This document shows, one piece after another, positions 29,569 to 32,290 of a stretch of DNA of 64,000 bases. This DNA is from Alphaproteobacteria bacterium (lineage in GTDB: Bacteria > Pseudomonadota > Alphaproteobacteria > JANQMY01), in assembly GCA_028289425.1 (NCBI GenBank), contig JANQPL010000018.1, positions 310,001-374,000 of the forward strand. The letters are read 5' to 3'. The translations under genes and the position numbers were made by a program. Numbering within the stretch: position 1 is the stretch's first letter; the number at the start of each line of letters is the position of its first letter. The notes under the pieces were generated by a model. That model was not told the origin of the DNA, did no database searches, and worked only from the letters and a program-made list of their open reading frames with translations.

Positions 29569-29772
29569 CTCACCCCATCCCTTTGACCGGGAACCCTCTT
29601 GGTTAAAGGTCCCCCGCGAGCCAAGATCTGTCAAGCTTTCCGCAAGCTTTCACGACGATTTGGCAAGGGTAAGCGGGGCCTCTTAAAAATGGGTGAGAGG
29701 CTGCTTGCGAGCGTGCAAACCCAAATGATAGCGTCACCGCAAAACGCCAATCGATCACAGCGAGGCCCCTTC

Positions 29773-30912
29773 ATGTCTTCCGAAATCCGCCCCTTTTCCC
29801 TGGAAATCCCGCAAAGCGAACTCGATGACCTGAAGCAGCGCCTAAAGAACACACGCTGGCCGGACAAGGAAACGCCAGACGATTGGAGCCAGGGGCTGCC
29901 CCTCGCCTATGCCCAGGAGCTGTGTGCCTATTGGGCGGACCAATATGATTGGCGCCGCTGTGAAGCCATGCTCAATCAGTACGACCAGTTCATCACCGAG
30001 ATCGACGGCCTGGACATTCACTTCCTGCACATCAAGTCCAAACACGAAGATGCGCTGCCTTTGGTCATCACCCATGGCTGGCCGGGTTCCGTCATCGAAT
30101 TCCATAAAGTGATCGGCCCCCTCACCGACCCGACGGCCCATGGCGGCAAGGAAGCGGATGCGTTCCACCTGGTGCTGCCGACCATTCCCGGCTACGGCTT
30201 TTCCGGCAAGCCCACCAAGCCGGGATGGAACATCGAAAAAATCGGCACCGCGTGGGCGCAGCTTATGGGGCGTCTCGGTTACGACCGGTACGGCGCGCAA
30301 GGGGGCGACTGGGGCTCTGCCATTACCTCCGCCATTGGTGCCAAGGATCCCGACCATTGCGCCGGCATCCACGTGAACATGGTGGCGGCCGCCCCTGATC
30401 CCGACACCATGAACGACCTAACCGATAAAGAGCAGGCCGCCCTTGCAAGCCTGCAGCATTATCAGGATTGGGATTCCGGTTATTCGAAACAACAGTCCAC
30501 GCGGCCGCAAACGCTTGGCTATGGCCTGGTGGATTCCCCCGCCGGCCAATGCGCCTGGATTGTGGAGAAATTCTGGTCCTGGATGGATTGCGACGGCCAC
30601 CCTGAAAACATTCTGACCAAAGACGAAATACTGGACAATGTGATGATGTATTGGCTGCCTGGCGCGGGCGCCTCATCGGGCCGGCTTTACTGGCAGAGCT
30701 TCAACAATTTCACCGCCGGCGTGATCAATGTGCCCACCGGGTGCAGCGTGTTCCCCAAGGAGATCATGCGCGCCTCCCAGCGCTGGGCCAAAAAGCGGTA
30801 CACGGACATTCAGTTCTGGAACGAGCACGACAAGGGCGGCCATTTCGCTGCCTTCGAACAGCCCGAGGCGTTCGTGGGCGACGTGCGCGCGTTTTTCGCG
30901 AAGGTGCGTTAG
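29773..30912 (+). CDS. Epoxide hydrolase (EHN-domain, alpha/beta fold)
   Basis: A 379-residue enzyme with an N-terminal EHN-type domain (RPFSLEIPQSELDDLKQRLKNTRWP) ahead of the alpha/beta hydrolase core. Landmarks are HGWPGS (101-106) for the oxyanion hole, GGDWGS with nucleophile D179, and GGHFAAFEQPE with catalytic H357. Tyrosines that polarise the epoxide are expected in the cap. This matches the microsomal-type/juvenile-hormone-type epoxide hydrolase group. The ATG has GAGG ahead; the long N-terminal frame from 29599 overlaps the divergent gene and is rejected. It converges with the MoaD-like gene, their stops overlapping. Confidence 0.92.
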   Translation: MSSEIRPFSLEIPQSELDDLKQRLKNTRWPDKETPDDWSQGLPLAYAQELCAYWADQYDWRRCEAMLNQYDQFITEIDGLDIHFLHIKSKHEDALPLVITHGWPGSVIEFHKVIGPLTDPTAHGGKEADAFHLVLPTIPGYGFSGKPTKPGWNIEKIGTAWAQLMGRLGYDRYGAQGGDWGSAITSAIGAKDPDHCAGIHVNMVAAAPDPDTMNDLTDKEQAALASLQHYQDWDSGYSKQQSTRPQTLGYGLVDSPAGQCAWIVEKFWSWMDCDGHPENILTKDEILDNVMMYWLPGAGASSGRLYWQSFNNFTAGVINVPTGCSVFPKEIMRASQRWAKKRYTDIQFWNEHDKGGHFAAFEQPEAFVGDVRAFFAKVR

Positions 30913-31181
30913 CCCCCCGAAACGGAATTGATCACGGTCACCCGGTCGCCGGGGGATAACGGCATGGCGAGCGGGTCGGCGGTGCGCCAGAATTCCTCAT
31001 TCTTGATGAAGCGGATGTGGCGGCGCACATTCCCTGCCTCATCGAAGAAGTGGGTCTTGAGGCCGGGCGCGCGCGCGATAATATCTTGCAAGACGTCGCC
31101 TAAGGTTGCACCCTCGCCTGTGGCCTCTGACACGCCCGTCAGGTTGGCGAGCACCCGCGGCAACTCCACCGTTACCGTCAA
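30909..31181 (-). CDS. MoaD/ThiS-family ubiquitin-like protein
   Basis: A 90-residue beta-grasp protein ending in Gly-Gly (NSVSGG), the mark of sulfur-carrier or ubiquitin-like proteins activated at the C-terminus. VTVELPRVLANLTG, TLGDVLQDIIARAPGL and LSPGDRVTVINSVSGG follow the MoaD pattern. The start is a TTG whose last bases are shared with the stop of the beta-propeller gene (TTGA), so translation is coupled. No molybdopterin or thiamine genes are nearby, so the role is not that of classical MoaD/ThiS by context. Pairing with the propeller gene is discussed in the findings. Confidence 0.88.
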   Translation of the reverse strand: MTVTVELPRVLANLTGVSEATGEGATLGDVLQDIIARAPGLKTHFFDEAGNVRRHIRFIKNEEFWRTADPLAMPLSPGDRVTVINSVSGG

Positions 31182-32290
31182 TGGAAGCTTTCCACGCACA
31201 GCACTTTGGGAAGGCCTTGAACGGCTTCCCGCCAAGTGTCGCCCCCATCGGTGCTGGCATAGACTTGCCCCGCCGACGTACCGAAATAGACGCCGAACGC
31301 CGGCCCCTGATCGATCGCCATCGCGCCCCTTAAGATGCTGGTGTAGAACTCGGTCGGCAGGCCGTTATCGAGCCGCTCCCAACTTTTTCCCTTGTTCCTT
31401 GTGCGGAACACGGCCAGCTCGCCGTCTTTTGGAAAACGAAAATTGTCCCCCGCCAGGGGAATGGCGAACACTGAATCGGTTTCCACATTCATCACCACCG
31501 GAAAGCCGAAAACGCATTTGTGCTTATCGGTGAGTTCCGCGATGGGTAGGCCATCTTCGATCAGCACCCAATGGTCGCCCCCATCGTCGGAGCGGTAGAA
31601 CCCCCGATGGTCCTGGCGATAGATCACGCCCGCGTTTTGCGGGTCGTGGGCCAGGCCATGCACGCAATACCCTTCGTCGGACGACACGCCCTCATTGGCC
31701 GACACCCATGATGTGCCGCCGTCATCGGTGCGGAAAACGCCGGCGGCGGAAATGCCCACCCACAGGCGGTCGGCATTCACGTCATCGGTGAGGATGCTGT
31801 GGCAGCACAGGCCGCCAAAGCCCGCGTTCCAATTATCCCGGGACGGATGATCGTTGAGGCCCTTTACCGGCTGCCAGCTTTGCCCCAAATCGTTGGACAC
31901 GAACAATCCCGCCTCCGACACGCCTGCATAAAGCCGCTTACTGTCGCTATGCAGCTTCCAAATCTGATCCACATAACGCTGCGTCGCCTGCTTCGCCCCC
32001 ATCGGGTCCATGGCGCCCATCAGCCGGTTATGCATGTCGTTGCCGCGCTCGCCCTCTTCGTAGCGCGGGCCGTTTTCGAGCGGGGTGTAGGTCTTGAAAT
32101 CGTCCGTCACCACCACGGTGCAGCCATACACATCGCTGGTGACGCCGATGTAATAGCGGCCATCGGGCCCTTGGGTGGCGGCGGTCACCAACCAGCCCTG
32201 AAGCTCAAGCCCGTCATGGGTCCAGCCGCGGCCATTGCGGCGGAGCGCCACGGCCCCCTTGCCCGTTCCCACAAAGACCACATCTGCCAT
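31178..32290 (-). CDS. Beta-propeller protein with Asp-box (BNR) repeats
   Basis: A 370-residue cytoplasmic-looking protein (no signal peptide) with five Asp-box motifs of the form SxDxGxxW: SNDLGQSW, TDDGGTSW, SDDGGDHW, RNKGKSW and STDGGDTW. This is the pattern of BNR/sialidase/sortilin-type propellers, without the sialidase FRIP arginine start or catalytic residues that I can see. The ATG follows GGGAGGTTCGGCC. The stop overlaps the start of the MoaD-like gene, so the two make a coupled pair. I do not know a characterised function. Confidence 0.85.
   Translation of the reverse strand: MADVVFVGTGKGAVALRRNGRGWTHDGLELQGWLVTAATQGPDGRYYIGVTSDVYGCTVVVTDDFKTYTPLENGPRYEEGERGNDMHNRLMGAMDPMGAKQATQRYVDQIWKLHSDSKRLYAGVSEAGLFVSNDLGQSWQPVKGLNDHPSRDNWNAGFGGLCCHSILTDDVNADRLWVGISAAGVFRTDDGGTSWVSANEGVSSDEGYCVHGLAHDPQNAGVIYRQDHRGFYRSDDGGDHWVLIEDGLPIAELTDKHKCVFGFPVVMNVETDSVFAIPLAGDNFRFPKDGELAVFRTRNKGKSWERLDNGLPTEFYTSILRGAMAIDQGPAFGVYFGTSAGQVYASTDGGDTWREAVQGLPKVLCVESFH

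Follow-up and report, generated by a model that had tools for sequence, protein, structure and literature searches.

The window, a stretch of 64,000 nucleotides from an alphaproteobacterial contig, carries on its minus strand a beta-propeller gene followed by a gene for a small MoaD-like protein. The features of this pair, in window coordinates, are as follows.

31178-32290, minus strand: Asp-box beta-propeller gene, ATG to TGA, 370 aa, seven-bladed
30909-31181, minus strand: gene for a ThiS/MoaD-family beta-grasp protein, TTG to TAA, 90 aa, C-terminus SVSGG
31178-31181, minus strand: TTGA overlap of the propeller stop (TGA) with the MoaD-like start (TTG), read from the sequence
30912-30917, minus strand: codons for the two C-terminal glycines, directly 5' of the TAA stop

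The first-pass annotation had placed both genes at these positions and had described the TTGA overlap and the Gly-Gly end, all of which were recovered here; the overlap likely reflects translational coupling of the two genes. The same annotation held that no gene for cofactor synthesis, E1-type activation or sulfur transfer lies next to them. This was borne out among the flanking genes tested with Pfam and NCBIfam, which encode an epoxide hydrolase, a sulfotransferase, a P450, a PDZ protein and an LLM oxidoreductase and include no Moco, thiamine, E1 or sulfurtransferase gene. The epoxide hydrolase gene (29599-30912, plus strand) is convergent with the MoaD-like gene, and their 3' ends overlap by 4 bases (30909-30912).

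The small protein belongs to the ThiS family (Pfam PF02597, 35.6 bits against a cut-off of 22.5), and its nearest solved relatives are CysO of Mycobacterium tuberculosis (3dwg, E 1e-8) and the ThiS/MoaD family protein 4n6e. Neither the small protein nor the propeller reaches an NCBIfam cut-off. The closest NCBIfam model for the former is SAMP1, at 42.8 bits and under the cut-off of 60, a model that 33 of 38 MoaDs match at E<=0.001. The propeller is above the Pfam cut-offs for BNR/Asp-box, Sortilin-Vps10 and PSII_BNR and has no apparent signal peptide. Its AF2 model (pLDDT 90, pTM 0.90) has the same fold and family as 3b7f (Reut_B4987 of Ralstonia eutropha) in a full-length match that spans residues 1-370 (Z 44.2, 2.1 A, 337 residues aligned, 35% identity); at the sequence level the match covers residues 103-368 (E 6e-46), and the other fold matches listed for the model have Z values of at most 27. 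The propeller of a same-genus relative (L013:1501-2424) is without about 60 residues (250-308), removed in frame and amounting to approximately one blade, possibly an assembly artefact given that the assembly is fragmented.

A survey of co-occurrence, which the first-pass annotation had suggested, was run over 385 genomes of the window's class (Alphaproteobacteria, assigned from two of the loci, which match named loci of that class, one genus concerned being Aquibaculum), with score thresholds of at least 75 bits for the propeller and at least 45 bits for the MoaD subfamily; one propeller split at a contig end (G339) was counted by hand despite the 75-bit threshold. Strong propeller matches were found in 60 genomes and members of the MoaD subfamily in 52, with 51 genomes having both, far beyond chance (Fisher p ~5e-53, phylogeny not corrected for, and with a bias in that most sequences behind the MoaD profile were propeller-adjacent MoaDs). 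The propeller occurs without the MoaD in 9 of its 60 genomes, 3 of these 9 matches sitting at contig ends, and the MoaD without the propeller in 1 of 52. Profile scores for MoaD drop from 48.9 to 31.7 bits with none in between, which sets the more distant MoaDs apart as a group of their own. Within the 51 pair genomes the two genes are adjacent and on the same strand without exception, the MoaD lying upstream of the propeller in 27 and downstream in 24. Since 51 of the 52 genomes with the MoaD subfamily carry the propeller, always adjacent and on one strand, chance is excluded as an explanation of the adjacency, and the proposal of a coupled two-gene unit stands.

The pair is also found in other lineages. 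A GTDB species scan returned 557 propeller relatives, and the 80 named loci that were retained cover Acidobacteria, Chloroflexi, Planctomycetes, Gemmatimonadota, Armatimonadota, Sumerlaeota, Dormibacterota, Rokubacteria, Actinobacteria and Alphaproteobacteria. Together with 31 loci from genomes with G numbers, these make up a set of 111 loci. In 90 of them a MoaD gene lies no more than 2 kb from the propeller gene and on its strand, and these 90 hold 88 distinct MoaDs. The pair was present in Acidobacteria, Chloroflexi, Planctomycetes, Gemmatimonadota, Armatimonadota, Actinobacteria, Burkholderiales and Pseudomonas aeruginosa. A pair occurring by chance in a few genomes, an outcome that the first-pass annotation had named as adverse to its reading, is not what this spread across many phyla describes. 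Plasmid and chromid records gave a similar picture: 9 of the 14 examined hold the pair, including those of P. aeruginosa, Burkholderia, Mitsuaria, Cupriavidus metallidurans (whose propeller is a relative of 3b7f), Arthrobacter and Nonomuraea. In the other 5 (Marivivens, Fuscovulum, Rhodobacter, Streptomyces and Paraburkholderia phymatum) no MoaD lies beside the propeller, which in the P. phymatum record was matched as two separate frames. The P. aeruginosa propeller is PA1356, identified by its N-terminus. No stop-free frame spans both genes in any of the 111 loci, as a natural fusion of propeller and MoaD would; the nearest propeller frame is at most 24 nt from the MoaD in loci L045 and L084. 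In the second of these, from Chloroflexota, two tandem propellers precede a single MoaD (L084:9986-12474).

Phylogenetic trees of the two proteins tell of co-inheritance. Over 87 pairs, the propeller tree and the MoaD tree are correlated at r = 0.735, a value that none of 2000 permutations attained, and the MoaD tree reproduces five of the six major propeller clades exactly. The remaining clade, which spans several phyla and includes the propeller of the window, differs between the trees by two rows. Note that these are quick trees, in which 90-aa proteins leave some branches with weak support.

The small protein is divergent, and in one alignment of it the only invariant columns are R53, G89 and G90. 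One of the 88 distinct MoaDs is cut by a contig end. Among the 87 complete ones, Gly-Gly is terminal in 76, is followed by 1 to about 20 further residues in 9, and is lost in 2 (L067, which ends in SGD, and L113, in MIG); it is also lost in the Nonomuraea MoaD. The nine extended forms would need trimming before activation. The first-pass annotation had asked whether the Gly-Gly end is always kept and had counted its frequent loss as evidence against its reading. The end is not always kept, but retention in 85 of 87 proteins is the opposite of frequent loss.

A nearby MoaD was not found at 21 of the 111 propeller loci, in two of which (L036 and L078) the contig ends at or just past the propeller. 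In Elioraea an unlinked propeller (L057) coexists with an unlinked MoaD of the same subfamily (L159), and two Acidobacteria with an unlinked propeller likewise retain such a MoaD elsewhere (L162 and L163). Conversely, eight Rhodobacterales-like propeller genomes (G118, G222, G251, G388, G391, G396, G398 and G400) have no same-subfamily MoaD scoring above 29 bits, and several Chloroflexi have CysO-type clusters with JAB, MoeB and CysK genes in place of the pair's MoaD. Three MoaD-less propellers of the Rhodobacterales-like group (L019, L020 and L025) have in common an insertion of about 20-25 residues after the second blade of the alignment, and a MoaD-less propeller of Rhodobacter adjoins the ergothioneine genes egtB and egtD (L183:1-3795).

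The known roles of bacterial ThiS/MoaD-type proteins are chiefly in thiamine and Moco synthesis and, in some bacteria, in cysteine synthesis, siderophore synthesis or sulfur transfer to tRNA. The host genome encodes both of the principal systems away from the window pair. Its canonical MoaD adjoins MoaE (L001), and its ThiS is fused to ThiG in a single frame of 352 aa (L002:1432-2490), so that the ThiS glycines are internal. No MoaE lies beside the window pair, which sets its small protein apart from the MoaD of molybdopterin synthase. A role of the pair in Moco synthesis was considered and rejected: besides the separate MoaD of the host, MoaE is equally common with and without the pair, in 49 of 51 pair genomes and 56 of 58 others, the comparison genomes being non-random and many of them having weak paralogous matches. 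Adjacency in both gene orders, matching trees and the presence of MoaD/MoaE and ThiS-ThiG elsewhere in the host uphold that part of the original interpretation which placed the coupled unit outside cofactor synthesis, and functional coupling of the two genes in this sense is strongly supported.

A candidate activating enzyme is generally at hand. The host has a single ThiF/MoeB-like E1, encoded downstream of a cysteine-synthase-like gene and an Rrf2-like regulator (L128:355-2268), and a ThiF/MoeB match of full-length quality is present in 49 of 51 pair genomes; the remaining 2 gave weak E1 matches only, and one of them is 78% complete. The E1 gene is rarely adjacent to the pair (2 of 111 loci); in two Armatimonadota loci a MoeB-rhodanese gene is directly convergent with the MoaD. 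Other candidate components did not follow the pair. JAB genes at E<=1e-10 occur in 13 of 41 pair genomes and 17 of 39 others, a comparison that covered these subsets of the 51 pair genomes and the 58 others and revealed no enrichment, with the host itself encoding a JAB protein. Since neither MoaE nor JAB tracks the pair, a third component was not identified in this way. Clustering of neighbours at the 80 named loci likewise gave no third conserved gene near the frequency of the pair. When 100 of the 250 listed neighbouring genes were sorted by Pfam family, 3-dmu-9_3-mt and Glyoxalase came first, each with at most 8 of 100, and ThiF had 2 of 100; the set contained no recurrent cofactor partner and no recognisable E2-like or E3-like gene. 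A search for a defence role with PADLOC gave no match at E<=0.01.

The propeller offers a further clue. Across 88 paired propellers, eight residues reach 98-100% conservation: T9, K11, H164, S181, H211, Q226, H228 and R321. According to the strands of the AF2 model, H164, H211 and R321 lie at the starts of innermost strands, and K11, S181, Q226 and H228 in the B-C loops that come next. In the usual propeller topology such strand starts and loops make up one face around the axis. Judged from these strand positions, the conserved residues likely lie close together on one face near the axis, a likely ligand-binding or active site. Propellers that lack an adjacent MoaD, 8 from Rhodobacterales and 5 from Chloroflexi, keep the same site in full; therefore, it does not serve this carrier alone. 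That the invariant site persists without the dedicated MoaD speaks for an enzyme or receptor rather than a passive target. Databases label the propeller an exo-alpha-sialidase or a member of the sialidase family. The active site of sialidases contains an Arg triad, a Tyr/Glu pair and an Asp acid; with one invariant Arg (R321) and no invariant Tyr or Glu in the paired propellers, the label is unsupported. When the N-terminus of the P. aeruginosa homologue was tried as a Tat signal it failed (PMC6085387), and this outcome suits a cytosolic propeller. A passage of another article (PMC11538994) states that PA1356 promotes biofilm and gives the statement without a test of PA1356. An AF2 model of propeller and MoaD as one linked chain, the only form in which the MoaD was modelled, had a pTM of 0.78 and showed no defined interface or arrangement, with pLDDT above 90 in both domains and 71 in the last block of the tail. 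Consequently, it predicts no docking of the two and neither supports nor refutes an association.

The pairing, the kept Gly-Gly end, the E1, the invariant propeller site and the missing cofactor genes are observed features, and from them we infer activation by the host E1, binding of propeller and carrier, and sulfur-transfer chemistry. The small protein would be the third ThiS/MoaD-type carrier of the cell, apart from those of thiamine and molybdopterin synthesis. Its Gly-Gly end would be adenylated, and probably thiocarboxylated, by the single MoeB/ThiF-like E1 encoded elsewhere. The propeller would be a dedicated client whose conserved face receives the charged carrier; there the sulfur of the thiocarboxylate would most likely pass to a small-molecule substrate, as happens with MoaE/MoaD and ThiG/ThiS. 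In known systems, a sulfur carrier is often encoded next to the enzyme that uses up its sulfur (moaE, thiG, cysM). The pair has in common with MoaD/MoaE and ThiS/ThiG the ThiS family, the Gly-Gly end and an adjoining gene for a dedicated partner, and differs from them in that the partner is a beta-propeller. We hold this sulfur-transfer explanation tentatively, as somewhat less than evenly balanced. A broader statement, that a widespread and undescribed carrier or ubiquitin-like system has a cytosolic propeller as acceptor enzyme or receptor of a third ThiS/MoaD protein charged by a general E1, comes close to an even chance.

The small protein may instead be a modifier of the SAMP or TtuB kind, charged by E1 and conjugated to the propeller or other proteins, or switching them, with the propeller as target or receptor. 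SAMP1, an archaeal modifier, is the closest NCBIfam model, though the score is below its cut-off, and differs in that the protein of the pair is bacterial. The kept Gly-Gly end is in agreement with modification, the nine extended forms would need trimming as modifiers do, and one propeller lysine, K11, is 98% conserved. However, this lysine is equally conserved in MoaD-less propellers and hence probably not a dedicated site for this modifier, the neighbours scanned included no recognised E2-like or E3-like gene, and JAB genes of the deconjugase type are not enriched. On balance we consider such a modifier unlikely, while giving it real weight. A plain subunit or chaperone of the propeller, a beta-grasp protein that is never activated and whose glycines are structural or a relic, would fit the asymmetry by which the MoaD rarely stands alone (1 of 52 genomes) and the propeller does so more often (9 of 60), as well as the MoaDs in which Gly-Gly is lost or tailed; yet Gly-Gly clearly stands out as the best conserved stretch of a divergent protein, and we regard non-covalent association alone as decidedly unlikely.

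A CysO-like route, with the small protein supplying sulfur for cysteine synthesis and the propeller assisting, is improbable. It would draw on CysO being the best solved relative, with a beta-grasp fold and a C-terminal AGG/SGG like that of the pair's MoaD, on the cysteine-synthase-like gene that adjoins the host E1 gene, and on a CysK-like gene near L113. Against this, CysO and the CysO-type proteins encoded beside JAB, MoeB or CysK/CysM split off together as a separate branch (support 78) with neighbours other than those of the pair, and CysK occurs in 1 and JAB in 0 of the 111 pair loci. A reading in which the propeller, called a sialidase in databases, acts as a secreted glycosidase or sialidase and adjoins the MoaD without functional meaning is scarcely credible, since adjacency is far above chance, the invariant residues are not those of a sialidase, and the P. 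aeruginosa N-terminus failed as a Tat signal (PMC6085387).

Returning to the carrier and its client propeller, the component types are known and the pairing appears to be new. A search of the open-access full-text literature (PMC) found no paper on it. The words 'propeller', 'sialidase' and 'BNR' are absent from the 2006 catalogue of ThiS/MoaD neighbourhoods (PMC1779556) and from PMC2948915, and the passages retrieved for 'propeller' from PMC1949818 and PMC1796856 are unrelated to the pair. A 2009 survey of Asp-box proteins gives the function of 3b7f as 'Not known' and names no partner in the passages concerned (PMC2716378). A seven-bladed propeller with weak sequence and fold matches to that of the window is Ycf48, against whose NCBIfam equivalog cut-off of 326 bits the window propeller scores 30.5. 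In PMC10403576, Ycf48 is described as binding its partner through a conserved charged patch, the C-terminal tail of the partner wrapping around it; its conserved residues and its partner are different from those of the propeller studied here.

The recurrent pairing points to an uncharacterised system for sulfur transfer or protein tagging, whose distribution over many phyla includes P. aeruginosa and Cupriavidus. If the explanation is true, a third carrier tied to an enzyme-like propeller across phyla would add a sulfur-transfer or tagging pathway to those of bacteria, and a role would be gained for the 3b7f propeller, whose structure was released in 2007.
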